Assembly (NCBI RefSeq): GCF_000430005.1
Contig: NZ_KE387017.1
Location: forward strand, 253,715-317,714
Direction of reading: 5' to 3'
From: Desulfovibrio cuneatus DSM 11391
Lineage (GTDB): Bacteria; Desulfobacterota; Desulfovibrionia; Desulfovibrionales; Desulfovibrionaceae
DNA: 64,000 bases
A program made the translations under genes and the position numbers. The notes beneath the pieces are model-generated. The model made no database searches and was not told the DNA's origin. It saw nothing but the letters and a program-made list of their open reading frames with translations. Of the stretch, positions 632-64,000 are shown in pieces (the first letter of the stretch is position 1; the number at the start of each line of letters is the position of its first letter).

Positions 632-867
632 TGAAATGGCAGAAAGAGCCTTGGCAAAAAAGAGCGTGTGGGATACACCAGCCTTAGGCACAGTGTGTGG
701 CGTACGCATTCCCACACAGCCCCAGCCGGGTTGTGCAAGGCGGCGGCTGCATGTATAGTCGTTGGTTCAGTTTGTTTCGCGTGTCTTTGGTGGTTCCTGT
801 AAACGGATACCAGCACCTGCTGCATGGGCTTTTACCGTACTCTGGTGTGTTCCGTCAAACATATCAA

Positions 868-992
868 GGAAACGCTGATTTATTTCGTTTCGCTGCGTTA
901 CTTCTCTTTTTTTGAAACAGTCAAGGACAGAAGAGTTGACTCCTGCTTCAAAAAAAGCTCGTGCCTTGCCAAACGAAAAACTGAGCGTTTCC
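868..992. repeat. family A palindromic element, copy A1
   Basis: The outer arms GGAAACGCTGATTTATTTCG and, on the other strand, GGAAACGCTCAGTTTTTCG are inverted. The inner stem is TTTTTTTGAAACAG...CTGCTTCAAAAAAA. It fills most of the space upstream of nadC and could fold into one long cruciform or hairpin. Apart from copy B1 I see nothing else in 410-1054. Confidence 0.8.
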
Positions 993-1054
993 AAAACTCC
1001 ATTTAAACAATGGCGTCTTAACTTCTTATCACCTCAACCGTGCGGGCACAATCC

Positions 1055-3200: not shown

Positions 3201-3284
3201 CCTGTGCAGCGCCCTCCGATACACTATGTGCACTATTCCCTCGACTGGATTATAATAAAAGACGCACTGATTAAATAGCAATTT

Positions 3285-3408
3285 GGAAACGCGTAGTTAC
3301 TTCGTTTGGCAAGGCGCGAGTTTTTTTGAAACAGGAGTGGACTCTTCCGTCCATGACTGTTTCAAAAAAAGGAAGCAACGCCGCCAAACGGAATAAATCA
3401 GCGTTTCC
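3285..3408. repeat. family A palindromic element, copy A2
   Basis: Left arm GGAAACGCGTAGTTACTTCG; right arm, other strand, GGAAACGCTGATTTATTCCG. The inner stem is TTTTTTTGAAACAG / CTGTTTCAAAAAAA, with GTGGAC/GTCCAT near the tip. The right end runs into TAAGGAG, the ribosome binding site of nadB, so an RNA copy of the hairpin would end just before that site. Confidence 0.85.
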
Positions 3409-3420
3409 TAAGGAGTGAGC

Positions 3421-9663: not shown

Positions 9664-9800
9664 GGGAAACACGGATTTATTCCGTTTGGATGCGTTACCC
9701 CTAAAGCCGACGGCAGTTGCGAGCATAGCGAGCTGTGGAGTGAGGACTGAGGGTGCGGGTGGCTTTGCTACCCGCACATATCCACGAAGCCCGAGCGGAT
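9664..9800. repeat. family A element, body type, copy A3
   Basis: Left arm TAGGGAAACACGGATTTATTCC, then the GC-rich body starting ACCCCTAAAGCCGACGGCAGT (9697) and ending GCCCGAGCGG (9798), with an internal hairpin GTGCGGGTGGC...GCTACCCGCAC. The right arm is decayed. The same body recurs near 19.3, 21.7, 62.6 and 63.95 kb. The region lies between gmk and pyrF. Confidence 0.7.
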
Positions 9801-9857
9801 AGTTGTTGCCGCTGCATAATGTTCTTTTTTTTATGTGCCTTCTGTGCGAGGATGACC

Positions 9858-19291: not shown

Positions 19292-19435
19292 TAACCCTAA
19301 AGCCGACGGCAGTCGAGAGCGTAGCGAGCCGTGGAGCGACGCAGCGGGGCGTTGGCGGCTTCGCCGCCAGAGCATGTACCCCGATGCTGGAGCGAAAAAA
19401 GGTCACGCCGCCAAAAGGAATAAATCAGCGTTTCC
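19292..19435. repeat. family A element, body type, copy A4, ending at the permease stop codon
   Basis: The body starts AACCCTAAAGCCGACGGCAG. The inner hairpin GGCGGCTTCGCCGCC lies near 19352. The right arm GCGTTTCC ends at 19435, and the next three bases (CTA, 19436-19438) are the stop codon of the minus-strand permease gene. The left arm is missing. Confidence 0.75.
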
Positions 19436-20284: not shown

Positions 20285-20354
20285 GCGGTGGGTCCTGCTG
20301 CAAGTAAAAAGAAAAGAGAATAAGGTTGAGAAAGCACTGCGTTACTCGTGTTTG

Positions 20355-20477
20355 GGAAACGCTGAGTTTTTTCGTTTGGCTAGGCGCAAGTGTTTTTGAA
20401 AAGGGGGGGTGGGCTCTTTGGCCCTGCCCCCTTTTCAAAAACATGCAGCAACAACGCTAAACGGAAAAACTCAGCGC
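20355..20477. repeat. family A palindromic element, copy A5, between permease and binding-protein genes
   Basis: Left arm GGAAACGCTGAGTTTTTTCG; right arm, other strand, GCGCTGAGTTTTTCCGTTT. The inner stem GTTTTTGAAAAGGGGG / CCCCCTTTTCAAAAAC is strong. Its right end touches the TAA stop (20478-20480) of the binding-protein gene. Confidence 0.85.
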
Positions 20478-21548
20478 TTATTTGCCAAGTACTTTTTGGG
20501 TCCACGCTTCATCAATAGTCTTTTTGGCCTGGGAAGACTTGATAATATCCAGGGGCTGCACCTGGGGGGCTTCGGGCATATACTGCTTCATGGCTTCAGG
20601 AATTTCCACACCCGGCACAGAGGGGCGCACGTAGCCATCCACAAAAATCTGCTGGCCCATTTCAGACATGACAAAGTTCAGCCACAGCTTCCCGGCGTTG
20701 GGGTTGGGGCCTTTTTTTACCAGACTCATGGCGTAGGGGGCACTCACGCTGGCTTCACGTGGAATAACCACGGCAATGTCGTCGCCCATGCCGTCCAGCA
20801 GTTTTGCTTTCAGGCCGTCCCCTTCATAGGCAATCCAAATGGGAATTTCCCCTTTAATAAACTTGGCATAGGGGGTGGTGCCTTCAGTACGCTGCACGTT
20901 GCCTAGCTTGTGCAACTTGGCAAGGTAATCAATGCCGGGCATGACGTTGTCCACAGAACCGCCAGCCCCATAAGCTGCGGCAATGGTCAGTACCTGGCCC
21001 TGCCCGGTGGAGCGGGGGTCAAGGTACACAATGCTGTTTTTGTATTCGGGCTTCAGCAGGTCTTCCCAGGACTGGGGCACGTTTTGCACCAGCTTCTTGT
21101 TCACCAAAAAGGCTACCACAAGCTGGTGTACCACAAACCATTCGTCGTCTTTATCTTTAAAAGCGGCGGGGAGCTTGTCGAAATTCACGGGCTTAAACCC
21201 GGTAAGCACACCTTTTCCCTTGGCATCTACAGCAGACTGGGCAAAATAGTAGGCTGTGTCAGCCTGGGGGCGGCGGCGGGCTTTATCCAGGGCCACCACG
21301 GTGGCGCCGGAGCCAAGGTCGTTGGCTACCAGCTCAATTTCCGGGTAGCGCTTTTTAAAGGCCTTGAACTGATTGCCCCAGTTGGCCCAGGTGGGGCCTG
21401 TGTCAAAGGAAACAACCATGCCTTCTTCTTTGGCGGCTTCATATAGGGCTTTTTCACCGGGGTAGAGTTCCGCGCCTTCAAAAGCCTGGGCAGACAAGGG
21501 CAGGGCAAGCAGCAGGGCTGCTGCCAGGGTTGCGGCGTAGCGTATCAT
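20478..21548 (-). CDS. ABC transporter solute-binding protein (PotD/AfuA class)
   Basis: Periplasmic binding protein. The signal peptide MIRYAATLAAALLLALPLSAQAFEG ends at an AxA cleavage site. The mature 335 residues have the type-2 fold: YEAAKEEGMVVSFDTGP, ADTAYYFAQ, PQSWEDLLKPEYKNSIVYLDPRSTGQG, PIWIAYEGDGLKAKLL, FVMSEMGQQIFVDGYVRPSVPG. ATG at 21548 follows AAGGA; a longer frame to 21605 has no site. The candidate substrate classes are iron, polyamine, phosphonate or thiamine, and none is decided by the sequence. Family A elements flank it on both sides. Confidence 0.88.
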   Translation of the reverse strand: MIRYAATLAAALLLALPLSAQAFEGAELYPGEKALYEAAKEEGMVVSFDTGPTWANWGNQFKAFKKRYPEIELVANDLGSGATVVALDKARRRPQADTAYYFAQSAVDAKGKGVLTGFKPVNFDKLPAAFKDKDDEWFVVHQLVVAFLVNKKLVQNVPQSWEDLLKPEYKNSIVYLDPRSTGQGQVLTIAAAYGAGGSVDNVMPGIDYLAKLHKLGNVQRTEGTTPYAKFIKGEIPIWIAYEGDGLKAKLLDGMGDDIAVVIPREASVSAPYAMSLVKKGPNPNAGKLWLNFVMSEMGQQIFVDGYVRPSVPGVEIPEAMKQYMPEAPQVQPLDIIKSSQAKKTIDEAWTQKVLGK

Positions 21549-21608
21549 ACGTAGTTCCTTTTTGGGTTTATGGGTTGCAGTGGGGAAACATTGGTTGATT
21601 GGCATGTG

Positions 21609-21819
21609 GGAAACGCTCAGTTATTTCGTTTGGCAAGGCACACACTTTTTTTAATGGACTCTTCCTTTCATGAAAGTACCCCTAAAGCTGACGGCAGTCG
21701 CGAGCGTAGCGAGCCGTGGAGTGAGGGCGAAGGCTGCGGGCAGCTTTGCTGCACCGCACTTCCCAGCGATGCCCGAGCGGAGAAAGTACCGCTGCCAAAC
21801 GGAATAAATCAGCGCTTCC
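21609..21819. repeat. family A element, body type, copy A6 (211 bp), between binding-protein and ATPase genes
   Basis: Both arms are present: GGAAACGCTCAGTTATTTCG at 21609 and, other strand, GGAAGCGCTGATTTATTCCG ending at 21819. The GC-rich body is flanked by direct repeats GAAAGTACC at 21672-21680 and 21782-21790. The right arm touches the TAA stop (21820-21822) of the ATPase gene. Confidence 0.85.
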
Positions 21820-22887
21820 TTAGGCCAGGGGAATATCCCCTGGCGGTAACAGGCGCACGTGGTGCGGGTCTATGTGAATGCACCCTACCGGGGTTCTGGC
21901 GGTGGTTTCCCCCAGAATGCGGGCGCTGGTCCCTTCTGCGGCCAGTTCAAACCGGCGCAGGGCACCCAAAAATGTGTCGCTTGCCAGTGGTCCACGGAAT
22001 GTGTTGGGGCACAAGCCTGGGCTTGCGCTGGCTGGTTCCTGTAAGGGCTGCACATGCTCTGGCCGAACCAGCACCGTAACGGCTGCCCCTTCCTTATAAG
22101 CGCCAATTTCACATGCTAAGGTGGCAAAGCCAACATCCACCCGGCTTTGGCTGGTAACGGTGCCTTCCCACAGGTTGGCCTGGCCCACAAAGGCGGCTAC
22201 CAGCCGCGAATTGGGGTTGTCATATAGTTCTTGCGGGGAGGCAAGCTGCACAATGCGCCCCTGGTGCATCAGGGCAATTTTGGTGGCCATGGAAAGGGCT
22301 TCTTCCTGGTCGTGGGTCACGTGCAGGGCGGTTATGCCGTGTTCGCGCTGCAATTCGCAAATCTGGCTGCGCATTTCCACCCGCAGGCCCGCATCCAGGG
22401 CGGAAAGGGGTTCGTCCAGCAAAAGCACCACAGGGTTGAATACCAGCGCCCTGGCAAGGGCAACCCGCTGCTGCTGCCCGCCGCTCATGCTGCCGGGAAA
22501 GCGCCGGGCAAAGGCCCCCAGCCCCACCCGGTCCAGCATGGCAAGGGCACGCTTATGGCGCTCGGCCTGGGAAACACCACGAATTTTCAGAGGGTAGGCC
22601 ACGTTGTCCAGGCAGGACATAAGGGGGAACAGGGCATACGACTGGAACACCACCCCCATGTTGCGTTCCCGCGCGGGTACGTGGGTTACGTCTTGCCCGT
22701 TAACGCGAATGCACCCGCTATCTGGCTGTTCAAACCCTGCCACCAGCTTGAGCATGGTGGTTTTGCCGGAACCGCTTGCCCCAATAACGGCAATAAGTTC
22801 ACCTTGGGCGGCGTTGATGGAAACATCAAACACGCCCACCCCTGTGCCGGGGTACTGGAAGTTGCACTGTTCAATATCGATGCTCAT
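21820..22887 (-). CDS. ABC transporter ATP-binding protein (PotA/FbpC-like)
   Basis: 355 residues. Walker A GASGSGKTT (about residue 36), Q-loop VVFQSYALFP, signature MSGGQQQRVALARAL, Walker B VVLLLDEPLSALDA, switch histidine ALHVTHDQEEAL. The C-terminal 120 residues form a TOBE regulatory domain (LVRPEHV). Energises import with the two permeases. It is separated from the upstream permease by 161 bases that hold two perfect hairpins, and from the downstream binding-protein gene by a family A element. Confidence 0.93.
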   Translation of the reverse strand: MSIDIEQCNFQYPGTGVGVFDVSINAAQGELIAVIGASGSGKTTMLKLVAGFEQPDSGCIRVNGQDVTHVPARERNMGVVFQSYALFPLMSCLDNVAYPLKIRGVSQAERHKRALAMLDRVGLGAFARRFPGSMSGGQQQRVALARALVFNPVVLLLDEPLSALDAGLRVEMRSQICELQREHGITALHVTHDQEEALSMATKIALMHQGRIVQLASPQELYDNPNSRLVAAFVGQANLWEGTVTSQSRVDVGFATLACEIGAYKEGAAVTVLVRPEHVQPLQEPASASPGLCPNTFRGPLASDTFLGALRRFELAAEGTSARILGETTARTPVGCIHIDPHHVRLLPPGDIPLA

Positions 22888-42307: not shown

Positions 42308-43225
42308 CTACAGGATGCTGGTCACTATTTTGTCAACGTAAACTATGCTCACAAGTTGTTCGCGCAGTTTTACCACCCCTGCAATCAGGTCTGTGGTCAC
42401 CCCAAGGTGGGCTTCAATGTTCCAGTCAATGTCGGTTTGGGGCACCCGGTACATGGTGTGAATGCGCTCTACCAAAAGCCCAACCTGAAGGCCAAGACGC
42501 CTGCACACAATGATGAAGTTGTCATCAGATTGCCGCGGGCTGGGCACTTCAAGCACATGGCGCAACATAATGAGCGGGGTTACTTGCCCGCGTAGGTTAA
42601 TAACCCCTGCTACCAGCGGGGGCGAAGCAGGAAGCTTGGCAATGGGCTGAGTGCGAATAACTTCCTGCACGGCTGCCACAGGCACAACAAATTCCTGGTT
42701 GCCAAGGTAAAAGCCCACCATGAGCAGGTCGGTGGCCTCACGCAGGTTTTGATACAGCCCGTCGTTTTCAGGTTCTTTGTAGGTGGTAAGGGCTTCTGCC
42801 TGCTCAAAATGAATTTTGGAGGTTTCTGCCTGTGCCCTGGCAGTGGCAGCCACTTTAGCCTGCGGGGCGGGTGCTGCCACTTTGGGCTGCATTTGCGGAG
42901 CAGGTGCTGTCACTTCGGACTGCATTTGCGGAGCAGGTGCTGTCACTTCGGGCTGCATCTGCGGAGCAAGAGTTGTAATTTCAGGCTGCACTTGCTGGGC
43001 AGGAGCAGCAGCCAAGGGTTGCACTTGCGGGGCGGGTGCTGCAACTTCAGGCTGAATTTGCGGGGCGGGTGCGCTGGCAGGCAAGTTCAACCCTGCCAGA
43101 ATGGCTCCGGCATCTGCCCCCATGTATTTCTCAATAAACGCCTGTTCAGCCGAGGTAAAGCCAGTGCCTTTGTCCTCGGTTTCTGAGAAGTTGCAGTCGG
43201 AAAAATATTCTTCAGGGCTTTTCAT
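42308..43225 (-). CDS. cheW: CheW-domain protein with 11-residue tandem repeat linker (ParP-like)
   Basis: 305 residues. Residues 1-50 form a short acidic N-terminal region. Residues 52-125 hold about seven copies of an 11-residue unit, APAPQxQPEVx. Residues 165-305 are a CheW domain (LMVGFYLGNQEFVVPVAAVQEVI, INLRGQVTPLIMLRHVL, DLIAGVVKLREQLVSIVYVDKI). The start overlaps the end of parA by four bases. A CheW domain with a Pro-rich N-terminal arm next to a ParA ATPase is the layout of Vibrio ParP, which tethers chemotaxis arrays to the pole. Confidence 0.9.
   Translation of the reverse strand: MKSPEEYFSDCNFSETEDKGTGFTSAEQAFIEKYMGADAGAILAGLNLPASAPAPQIQPEVAAPAPQVQPLAAAPAQQVQPEITTLAPQMQPEVTAPAPQMQSEVTAPAPQMQPKVAAPAPQAKVAATARAQAETSKIHFEQAEALTTYKEPENDGLYQNLREATDLLMVGFYLGNQEFVVPVAAVQEVIRTQPIAKLPASPPLVAGVINLRGQVTPLIMLRHVLEVPSPRQSDDNFIIVCRRLGLQVGLLVERIHTMYRVPQTDIDWNIEAHLGVTTDLIAGVVKLREQLVSIVYVDKIVTSIL
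42860..43075. repeat. 33-bp tandem repeats inside the cheW gene
   Basis: About six consecutive 33-base units; the two near 42889-42954 differ at very few positions. They encode the 11-residue Pro/Ala/Gln linker and are likely variable in copy number between strains. Confidence 0.8.
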
Positions 43226-56872: not shown

Positions 56873-56896
56873 CAATGCGCAGTTAAAGGCTATTGA

Positions 56897-57022
56897 GGAA
56901 ACGGTGAGTTTTTGTGTTTGGCTAGGCACGAGCCATTTTTAAAGGGGGGCTGGACTTCTTTGGTCCTGCCCCCCTTTAAAAATGGCGAGTAACACCGCAA
57001 AACACAAAAACTCACCGTTTCC
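56897..57022. repeat. family A palindromic element, copy A7, ending in the glnN stop codon
   Basis: Both arms read GGAAACGGTGAGTTTTTGTG (5' on each strand), sharing the same departures from other copies. The inner stem is GCCATTTTTAAAGGGGGGC and its complement. The last C (57022) is also the first base of CTA, the glnN stop on the minus strand. Confidence 0.9.
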
Positions 57023-59226
57023 TAATAGATCCAGAGAAGCTCGCGGTATTTGGGCAAAGGCCAGCGGGCGTCGTCCACAAGGCTTTCCAGGGCATCTGCC
57101 TCAGCCCGGCAAGCCGTCATTACAGGCAGGAGCAGGTCGCGGCAAAAACGAGCTTTTTCCACCACAGACCCTTTAATTTCCATGCACCGGGGCAGCTCTT
57201 CATCCAGCCTGTCCAGGGCAATCATCAGGTCGCGCACATGGCGGTTCACGCGGTCAAGCTGCAACTGGTGCGTTTCCCACACCCCTTCATCGCATCCTGC
57301 CTTGCGCAATGACCCAATGGTTTCCGCCAGCTTACGCTGCCAGGAAAGGGAAGGGGGCAGAATAAGGGTGCGCCCCATTTCCAGGGCCACCTGGGCTTCA
57401 ATCATGAGCACTGTAATGTATTCGTCCAGCAAAATGTCGCGGCGTGAATGGACTTCACGCGGGGAAAGCACCCCGTAGCGGCTCAGCAGGGCAATGTGTT
57501 CGTCTGTGTTAAAAAGCTCAATGGCATCCACGGAATTGCGCAGGTTGGGCAGGCCGCGTTTTTCAGCCTCTTTGGGCCAGGCTGTGCTGTAGCTGTCTCC
57601 TGCAAACAGTACCGGGGCATGGGCGGCAAACTCTTCACGCAACAGTTTGTTCACGGCATCAAGGAACGGGGTGCCTTCTGCCACAGCCGCTTCCAGAATG
57701 GTTGCATAGGCGTCCAGTGCTTCCGTCACGGCCGTGTTCACAAGGAACGTAATGGGGGCAGCACTTTGCAGGGAGCCGGGGGAGCGAAACTCAAACTTGT
57801 TCCCCGTAAACGCCACAGGAGAGGTGCGGTTTCTGTCTGTGGCATCGCGCGGCAGTGCGGGCAGTGCGCTTACACCAATGCGCATAAATTCGCGCTGTTT
57901 TCCCTTGCTTTGGGTGCCGGCAATAATGCCTTCCACCACTTCCATAAGTTCATTGCCCAGGAACATGGAAAGAATGGCCGGGGGCGCTTCGTGGGCGCCA
58001 AGGCGGTGGTCGTTGCTGGCCGTGGCGGAACCGATGCGAATGAGGGAAGCATACTTGTGCACGGCACGGGCTGTGGCACACAGGTACACAAGGAACTGGG
58101 CATTTTCCTGTGGTGTATCACCGGGGTCCAGCAGGTTGTTGCCCTCGGAATCTTGTAGCGACCAGTTGTTGTGCTTGCCGCTGCCGTTTACCCCTTTGAA
58201 GGGCTTTTCATGGAGCAGGCACACCATGCCGTGGTCACGGGCCACACCGCGCAAAATTTCCATAATGAGCATGTTGTGGTCAATGGCAATGTTGGCTTCT
58301 TCATACAGCGGGGCCAGCTCAAACTGGGCCGGGGCCACTTCGTTGTGGCGTGTTTTCAGGGGAATGCCCAGGCGGTACAGGCGCTTTTCCACGTCCATCA
58401 TAAAAGCCAGAATACGCCCGCGAATGCTGCCGTAGTAGTGGTCGCCCATTTCCTGGCCCTTGGGGGGGCGTGCGCCAAACAGGGTGCGCCCTGTGTTTAC
58501 CAGGTCGGGGCGCTGCAAAAAGAATTGGCGGTCAATTAAGAAATATTCCTGCTCAATGCCCAGGGCCACGTTCACGTGGGTGGCGCGGTTGTTGCCAAAC
58601 AGGCGCAAAATACGCAAAGCCTGCTGGGAAAGTGCCTGGGTGGAGCGCAAAAGCGGGGTTTTACGGTCCAGGCATTCCCCGGTGTAGGAACAGAACGCCG
58701 TGGGAATGCACAGGGTTTTGCCGTTAAGGCTTTCCTTCAAAAATACAGGGGAGCGCGGATCCCATGCGGTGTACCCCCGTGCTTCAAAGGTGGTGCGAAT
58801 GCCGCCAGAAGGAAAGGACGAAGCGTCGGATTCTCCCTTAATAAGCATTTTACCCGAAAATTCGTTAATGATTCTACCAGGGCCACTGGGGGTTAAAAAG
58901 GCATCATGCTTTTCTGCGGTAAGGCCTGTCATGGGCTGGAACCAGTGGGTGTAGTGGGTGGTTCCTTTGTTCACTGCCCATTCTTTCATGGCATTGGCAA
59001 CAATGTCAGCCAATTGCGGGTCAAGGGGGGTGCCTTCATGAATGGTGGCCTGGAGCCGCTGGAACACGTTGGCAGGCAGGTAGCTGCGCATGGTCTCTTC
59101 GCCGAACACCAGTTCTCCGTATATTTCTTCCAACGGGGCAGCTTGGTAGTCAATATTCTTATTGAGGGGGCGGGTAGAGGCAATGTGGGAAATGGTGCTT
59201 TGACGCAAGGCATTACGCGTACTCAT
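57022..59226 (-). CDS. glnN: Type III glutamine synthetase (GlnN)
   Basis: 734 residues, the length of GSIII, a dodecameric enzyme making glutamine from glutamate and ammonia. GSIII marks: FPSGGIRTTFEARGYTAWDP, CIPTAFCSYTGECLDRKTPLL, NVALGIEQEYFLID, NEVAPAQFELAPLYEEANIAIDHN, LHEKPFKGVNGSGKHNNWSL (ATP site), and NKFEFRSPGS. GSIII is not adenylylated like GSI, so it is controlled differently. GGAG stands before ATG, and a palindrome GGCATAG-N5-CTATGCC (59260-59278) lies 34 bases upstream of the start. Confidence 0.95.
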   Translation of the reverse strand: MSTRNALRQSTISHIASTRPLNKNIDYQAAPLEEIYGELVFGEETMRSYLPANVFQRLQATIHEGTPLDPQLADIVANAMKEWAVNKGTTHYTHWFQPMTGLTAEKHDAFLTPSGPGRIINEFSGKMLIKGESDASSFPSGGIRTTFEARGYTAWDPRSPVFLKESLNGKTLCIPTAFCSYTGECLDRKTPLLRSTQALSQQALRILRLFGNNRATHVNVALGIEQEYFLIDRQFFLQRPDLVNTGRTLFGARPPKGQEMGDHYYGSIRGRILAFMMDVEKRLYRLGIPLKTRHNEVAPAQFELAPLYEEANIAIDHNMLIMEILRGVARDHGMVCLLHEKPFKGVNGSGKHNNWSLQDSEGNNLLDPGDTPQENAQFLVYLCATARAVHKYASLIRIGSATASNDHRLGAHEAPPAILSMFLGNELMEVVEGIIAGTQSKGKQREFMRIGVSALPALPRDATDRNRTSPVAFTGNKFEFRSPGSLQSAAPITFLVNTAVTEALDAYATILEAAVAEGTPFLDAVNKLLREEFAAHAPVLFAGDSYSTAWPKEAEKRGLPNLRNSVDAIELFNTDEHIALLSRYGVLSPREVHSRRDILLDEYITVLMIEAQVALEMGRTLILPPSLSWQRKLAETIGSLRKAGCDEGVWETHQLQLDRVNRHVRDLMIALDRLDEELPRCMEIKGSVVEKARFCRDLLLPVMTACRAEADALESLVDDARWPLPKYRELLWIY

Positions 59227-59292
59227 GGGGGCATTCTCCGAAGGTTTCCGGTTGCGTAGGGCATAGCTTTCCTATGCCAAGCAATTCATTTT

Positions 59293-59417
59293 GGAAACGC
59301 TGAGTTATTCCGTGTTGCTGTGTTTCTCAGGTTTTTTGCAACGGGGCAGGGCCAAAGAGCCCATCACCCGTTGCAAAAAAAGCTCGTGCCTTGCCAAACG
59401 AAAAACTGAGCGTTTCC
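59293..59417. repeat. family A palindromic element, copy A8
   Basis: Arms GGAAACGCTGAGTTATTCCG and, other strand, GGAAACGCTCAGTTTTTCG. The inner stem is TTTTTTGCAACGGG / CCCGTTGCAAAAAA with AGGGCC..AAGAGCCC near the tip. It lies upstream of glnN, between glnN and rlpA, not at a stop codon. Confidence 0.85.
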
Positions 59418-59574
59418 TCAATGTCATTTAATAGTTCGTTACTTAAATCTTTGTGCGGGGGCCGTCAATGTCTCTTTGGTCCGGCGGGCCGTGTAACGGT
59501 GTGCAAAAGCAAGAAACTCCCCGCAAGCACGTGCTTGTGGAGAGTTTGAATATGCAGAACAAAAAACACGAGAA

Positions 59575-62563: not shown

Positions 62564-62638
62564 GGAAACGTTGATTTATTCCGTTTGGCGGCGTTATGTC
62601 TCTAAAGCCGACGGCAGTCGCGAGCATAGCGAGCTGTA
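62564..62638. repeat. family A element, body type, copy A9, starting at the panC stop codon
   Basis: The panC stop TAG is followed at once by GGAAACGTTGATTTATTCCG, then CTCTAAAGCCGACGGCAGTCG and GAGCATAGCGAGCTGTAAG. The right half is missing or decayed. Confidence 0.75.
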
Positions 62639-63907: not shown

Positions 63908-64000
63908 AGAGCGTCTCTTTTTCCGTTTTGCGGCGTGACCTTCTTCGCTCGGGCTACGTGGAGATGTGCGGGTAGCAAAGCTACCCACACCCTCCGCCCT
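63908..64000. repeat. family A element, body type reversed, copy A10, starting at the metK stop codon
   Basis: After TAG comes AGAGCGTCTCTTTTTCCG, a decayed arm, then TTTTGCGGCGTGACC and the body in the opposite orientation to copy A3 (GCTCGGGCTACGTGGAGATG, GTGCGGGTAGC-AAA-GCTACCCACAC). It is cut by the window end. Confidence 0.65.

Follow-up and report, generated by a model that had tools for sequence, protein, structure and literature searches.

A structured, probably mobile repeat nested in family A hairpins of Desulfovibrio cuneatus

The A6 locus and further copies in the window

In Desulfovibrio cuneatus DSM 11391, two minus-strand genes encoding a solute-binding protein (20478-21605) and an ABC-transporter ATPase (21820-22887) are separated by copy A6 of a hairpin repeat referred to as family A, which in turn contains a second sequence, from now on called the body. 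The window, i.e. the whole 64,000-nucleotide stretch of DNA analysed, belongs to a genome assembly of 3.36 Mb in 76 contigs that is 96% complete (G000). One protein encoded in the window has its nearest relatives in uncultured Mailhella and other Desulfovibrionaceae (77-79% identity).

An earlier sequence-only reading had described A6 as a 101-bp body (CCTAAAGC...GAGCGGA) placed between two copies of the direct repeat GAAAGTACC within A arms, and this layout was found exactly at 21609-21819 (Table 1). The GC content of the A6 body is 0.65 (110-bp stretch 21673-21782), compared with 0.54 for the window. The same body had also been assigned to copies A3, A4, A9 and A10, in one or the other orientation. 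This holds for A3, A4 and A10, whereas only a short 5' fragment accompanies A9. Both orientations do occur: A4 and A6 have the body forward relative to A, whereas A3 has it reversed. It should be noted that the A6 body is a diverged copy whose RNA fold is no better than that of shuffled sequences. No Rfam family matched at gathering score within the window.

Body-free A copies are also found in the window (867-1006, 3265-3413, 20335-20486, 56877-57027 and 59289-59431); these are hairpins of about 130 bp with a central stem that varies complementarily between copies. Further, six in-phase 33-nt tandem repeats are located at 42861-43072 within a minus-strand ORF (42308-43225).

Table 1 Family A copies, bodies and structural features located in the window.
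Feature	Position	Strand	Remark
Family A copy A6, left (ascending) arm	21609..21671	+	left match to A consensus stops at position 65
9-bp direct repeat GAAAGTACC, left copy	21672..21680	+	seen in A6 alone among 85 copies
Body of A6, nested structured element, type 1	21681..21781	+	127 core copies in genome
Hairpin P1 of A6 body (ACGGC-AG-TCGC...GCGA-GCCGT)	21691..21717	+	
Hairpin P2 of A6 body (GGGC...GCCC outer stem and variable apical stem)	21725..21774	+	pairing poor in this diverged copy
9-bp direct repeat GAAAGTACC, right copy	21782..21790	+	overlaps purine-rich tail of body
Family A copy A6, right (descending) arm	21791..21819	+	
Body in copy A3, type 1	9699..9805	+	reversed relative to A
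Body in copy A4, type 2	19295..19402	+	forward relative to A
5' body fragment beside A9 arm	62601..62637	+	37 bp, model columns 2-38
Body of A10	63946..64000	-	cut by window end; complete at C1:317652-317758

Copy number, ends and folded structure of the body

Searches of the genome for the body core, allowing up to 3 mismatches, returned 127 matches to a 32-mer and 103 to a 34-mer, while a reversed control pattern returned none; the copy number is therefore far beyond chance. One hundred stretches, 94 picked for bodies and 6 for body-free A copies, were read, covering most but not all copies. A profile search of these stretches yielded 135 body pieces and, once two window matches that had been covered twice were dropped, 133 units. 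These correspond to 114 loci, 96 of them single, 17 double and one triple. None of the 133 units read carries a gene inside the body of the kind that would mark an autonomous parent. Frame 2 of the body is free of stop codons in 54 of 89 copies and frame 3 in 65 of 89, so insertions can extend reading frames.

Generally, the body is about 100-108 bp long and consists of the leader CCCTAAAGCC, hairpins P1 and P2 and the tail GAGCGGA, followed by a purine run. Its ends are precise: among the 85 full copies, the left end is conserved as C (82), C (76) and T (82) and the right end as G (83) and A (81). Such sharp ends point to either an enzyme or a discrete RNA. The two ends, CCCT and the purine tail, are not inverted repeats of each other.

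Two subtypes of the body, type 1 and type 2, could be distinguished. RNAalifold gave a weak result on mixed subtypes owing to misalignment in P2, and type 1 was then analysed alone. Both hairpins hold in 49 gap-free type-1 copies, with apical pairs switching among T-A, A-T, C-G and G-C. For 30 type-1 copies, 93.9% of cells were paired over 28 pairs, and double-sided changes were found in 46 cells as opposed to 17.4 in shuffles. This count, the covariation score and the paired-cell share were each matched by 0 of 500 shuffles, whereas the other two of the five structure measures were not beyond all shuffles (both-side-changed pairs, 30 of 500; further pair types, 57 of 500). Pairing falls to 33-47% when the partners are shifted by 1-3 columns. 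The structure is thus kept by compensatory changes and, as P1 is almost invariant, it is the apical half of P2, i.e. its upper part, that supplies the evidence for covariation. Type 2 also keeps P2, with a different sequence, as judged by eye. G-T pairs exceed A-C pairs (57 versus 27 in 49 related sequences), which weakly suggests that folding takes place in the strand as written here.

Compensatory changes would also be found in a functional RNA or regulatory element, such as a leader or terminator, that is maintained by selection and does not move, and the tail of the body does resemble a ribosome binding site. An ATG opening an ORF of at least 90 amino acids lies within 30 nt of 9 of 106 copies; the opposite side of the body gives 6 of 112, which is no clear excess and leaves a role in supplying ribosome binding sites unconvincing. 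Since, in addition, a crude ORF survey revealed no consistent orientation to genes and congeners lack the body except for a single copy described below, we consider this reading very improbable.

Contexts, insertion sites and relatives

Within 160 bp of the 114 loci read, A arms were found on both sides of the body in 17 cases, on the left only in 25 and on the right only in 17, while 14 loci adjoin a terminator-type hairpin (TTGGGGAGGCAGAGCCTCCCCAA) and 41 have neither A nor a terminator. A hairpins or terminators are thus present at 73 loci. An A arm adjoins the body on one or both sides at 59 loci and is missing from the other 55, and the body is therefore not bound to A. Inside A, mapping of the junctions onto a 126-bp consensus revealed one favoured stretch, the A-tract of the descending arm, which is occupied in both orientations. 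In most reversed bodies the junctions fall on this stretch as well, reverse positions 31-38 accounting for 14 of 23 left ends and positions 46-47 for 7 of 11 right starts. For forward bodies, A resumes at positions 81-96 in 28 of 35 right junctions; the sequence-only reading had held that a body always located at one position relative to the arms and never accompanied by target duplications would speak against independent mobility, and the nearly constant position inside A agrees with part of this. The exact joints vary, with As kept on both sides in L059, L060, L027 and L074 and A bases lost in others. Several reversed composites have one common junction (...TATAC, the body, then GGATAAAGGAAACAG), and tandem composite units are found in L075 and L081.

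Two other modules were observed in these regions. The central loop of A is replaced in several copies by a third module (GGCCCGTCCTGGGCCTCGGCCTTCGG..., flanks of L018, L033, L055, L088 and L094), A therefore serving as host to inserts of more than one kind. A further hairpin repeat (CCGTAGTGTTG...CAATACAGCCCTACGCCAAAG) adjoins several bodies on either side (flanks of L067, L078, L081 and L032).

The 9-bp repeat of A6 had been taken as a possible target duplication, and a genome-wide comparison of flanks was suggested as a check. Copies outside A arms were indeed recovered in this way; a 9-bp duplication is not a general feature, as flank matches of at least 9 bp occur in one of 85 full copies, A6 itself (shuffled expectation 0.07). 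Fixed-offset and longest-match tests on the 85 copies gave nothing beyond A6, and local alignment of longer flanks at 100 loci did not exceed chance except in a few cases. Using blastn, 500-bp flanks returned L062 as well as tandem composites and A-related repeats. Flanking direct repeats are seen in three copies, with lengths of 9 bp (A6), 31 bp (a copy in the congener G010) and 97 bp (L062, C18:25000-26700). In L062, the repeat is 98% identical, and a type-2 body is bracketed by two copies of the darP 3' end, the second of which carries a new stop codon. The G010 repeat (29 of 31 bp identical) begins within the tail. Between the left repeat and the body, L062 has 22 extra bases and the G010 copy 8. 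Variable duplication together with trimming within A would suggest nicks without fixed spacing or, alternatively, joining of a repair type. Insertion at a hairpin apex was rejected, as true left and right flanks pair no better than mismatched pairs (102 loci).

Family A is more widely distributed than the body. The congeners G004, G009 and G011 each show many matches to an A copy, and one fetched locus of each is 71-81% identical to the A consensus. The body core pattern was found in none of the 287 other genomes of the family (288 in all), and a body covariance model had no match in 246 other genomes of the phylum; the body is abundant in a single species among the 288 family genomes. Plasmids and phages contained no body, nor did viral contigs with three patterns. 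Among 58 relatives, the covariance model gave a weak match in G010 only. A type-1 model built without the G010 copy scores it at 32.3 bits (E 7.5e-07 over 31 kb). The type-2 model R2, run on 34 fetched loci, scores it at 75.5 bits, a partly circular value given that R2 includes this copy. On these scores the match (L115:1501-1604, G010:C1) is taken to be a real, diverged body copy. Its P1 differs, but leader, GAGCGACAAGGCGGG segment and GGAGCGGA tail are all retained. A baseplate J-like gene lies on one side of it and a DUF2612 gene on the other, which places it among phage tail genes; the 31-bp repeat does not disturb the start of the DUF2612 gene. Further copies of this kind may exist in congeners. 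Congeners were too diverged to yield an orthologous empty site for the body, and a literature search brought up no account of comparable repeats from Desulfovibrionaceae.

A tree of 89 bodies over 98 columns is poorly resolved, with 8 of 84 inner branches well supported. Mapping the four contexts (A forward, A reverse, terminator and other) onto it requires 33 changes, the least possible number being 3 and the shuffled mean 45.4, and when just the well supported branches are counted, at least 6, 5, 4 and 7 changes, respectively, are unavoidable. Bodies have therefore changed context repeatedly. As the count lies below the shuffled mean, context labels are clustered on the tree, and composite A-plus-body copies multiplying together probably explain part of the spread. 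Eight pairs of bodies with 96-98% identity are found in unrelated flanks; with 98% as the closest such pair, very recent movement is not demonstrated.

It is also conceivable, though in our view unlikely, that the body belongs to a composite repeat as one of its modules, comparable to boxB in BOX. It would then have entered A on one or a few occasions and spread along with it, and all other bodies would be remnants or recombination products. The favoured position in A, the common junction of reversed composites, the clustering of labels, the double and triple arrays and the tandem composite units of L075 and L081 would all fit such a history. It is difficult to reconcile with the 41 loci lacking both A and a terminator, with both orientations at one A site, with the at least 5-6 changes that well supported branches force for A labels and with congeners that have A and no body. 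Overall, the earlier interpretation is partly supported. Its proposal that a second mobile unit sits within the first agrees with the 55 loci free of A arms, the many context changes, the near-identical bodies in unrelated flanks and the congeners possessing A alone, while a subtype of the same element, its other suggestion, is not borne out, considering the bodies outside A and those same congeners. The body is very probably a separate element nested in family A.

Possible mode of spread and comparison with known repeats

We favour, with some confidence, a non-autonomous structured mobile element that is moved in trans by a putative enzyme reading the folded strand. According to this model, the element would have spread through intergenic DNA of one species, often into older hairpin repeats, landing in one A-tract of family A in either orientation or beside a terminator-type hairpin. 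The trans-acting enzyme may recognise the folded strand and insertion could take place at a break with two nicks at no fixed distance, after which the target would sometimes be duplicated (9, 31 or 97 bp) and sometimes trimmed. Some A-plus-body composites may then multiply as units, and tandem units could arise through tail-to-head joining with loss of the leader.

Candidates for the moving enzyme among IS200, IS110 and reverse transcriptases found no support in G000. A Y1 search of 35 genomes gave 10 matches in G000, all belonging to one IS200, and 0-2 matches in each of 14 congeners. The IS200 is present in at least 5 copies of 99.7-100% identity, each broken at a contig end (C5, C13, C15, C18, C20, C26, C34, C44 and C51; L096, L156-L164). 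Movement of the body as single-stranded DNA by this resident transposase would agree with the near-identical IS200 copies and with the hairpins near both ends, the lack of inverted repeats and the lack of a fixed duplication, all of which fit the class. IS200-class (Y1) elements are not known to make target duplications, which does not fit repeats of 9, 31 and 97 bp, the IS200 ends are unlike the body (best matches of 7-10 bp, at chance level) and strand bias relative to replication is absent (mean oriented GC skew -0.004, t -0.63, n=114), making an IS200 derivative very improbable. The one IS110 copy in G000 has no likeness to the body. An IS-derived MITE was likewise rejected, the body having no inverted-repeat ends, no likeness to IS200 or IS110 and no target duplication of fixed length.

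RNA-templated spread, in which the element is transcribed and its structured RNA then copied back where A-rich sites are nicked, in the manner of a SINE, would be suggested by the asymmetric ends with a purine- or A-rich 3' tail, the 5'-shortened second units, the variable duplication or loss of target and the prevalence of G-T over A-C pairs. The latter excess is weak and comes from related sequences, 3'-short copies also exist and RVT_1 has no match in G000 (assembly 96% complete), which likewise led us to reject a group II intron or other element mobilised by a reverse transcriptase; we therefore hold RNA-templated spread to be very unlikely. In a more specific form of this reading, the body would be a SINE-like element of bacteria. 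A reverse transcriptase or polymerase recruited in trans would copy its structured RNA, roughly 100 nt long, into hairpin arms and A-tracts, with target duplications of variable length and tandem units shortened at the 5' end as the outcome. Such an element might first have been carried by a phage, as the G010 copy lies between tail genes; we consider this form very improbable. Integron attC sites have the core sites RYYYAAC and GTTRRRY, and none was spotted by eye in the body consensus.

Returning to the non-autonomous element moved in trans, its closest counterpart in mode of action appears to be YPAL/RU-2 and in modularity BOX, with membership in neither. According to the part of the literature considered, YPAL/RU-2, the Yersinia palindromic sequence, is a small intergenic repeat of 168 bp with internal inverted repeats that has no TA termini, is not A+T-rich, targets sites at or adjoining dyad symmetry and makes target duplications of 3-26 bp (PMC2229807). 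By that description, the body is similar in being a small intergenic repeat that is not A+T-rich and in having two internal hairpins and no TA termini. It differs in its unrelated host, its length of about 108 bp, the absence of target duplications from most copies and one of 97 bp, its tandem arrays and its nesting in another repeat at a favoured site. BOX of Streptococcus pneumoniae is outlined as boxA, a tandem array of boxB and boxC, i.e. hairpin flank modules with none to several central units, with an RNA-like fold and repeat families inserted into one another (PMC3049150). Modularity, hairpin-forming flanks, an RNA-like fold and the insertion of one repeat family into another are features of the body too, while its occurrence without A flanks in many places and in both orientations inside A is not BOX-like as outlined there. 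A BOX-type composite with a central module only between its own flanks was accordingly rejected on the 55 of 114 loci read that have no A arm within 160 bp.

BrickBuilt of Porphyromonas gingivalis, as summarised in PMC4596501, is a minisatellite in a MITE, and resembles the body as a species-restricted tandem unit inside a miniature element; its unit is 23 nt and that summary mentions no independent copies. GTAG/CGTC REPs and REPINs with RAYTs are extragenic hairpin repeats of high copy number forming clusters and dimers, properties shared by the body, the REPs being 20-40 bp long with an unpaired tag in the account cited (PMC3733652). A REP/RAYT system was rejected, with no RAYT recognised in the genome and all 10 Y1 matches belonging to one IS200.

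How most small structured bacterial repeats move is described, in the material cited, as an open question (PMC2229807). Such repeats are common in bacteria, and the body seems to represent a family of small mobile repeats that is new but of a known kind. This family is abundant in one species, occupies one site of an older repeat in either orientation and has sharply defined ends without a target duplication of fixed length. Its movement would be directly observable in sister strains, and enzymes present in this genome and missing from congeners are candidates that can be tested singly.
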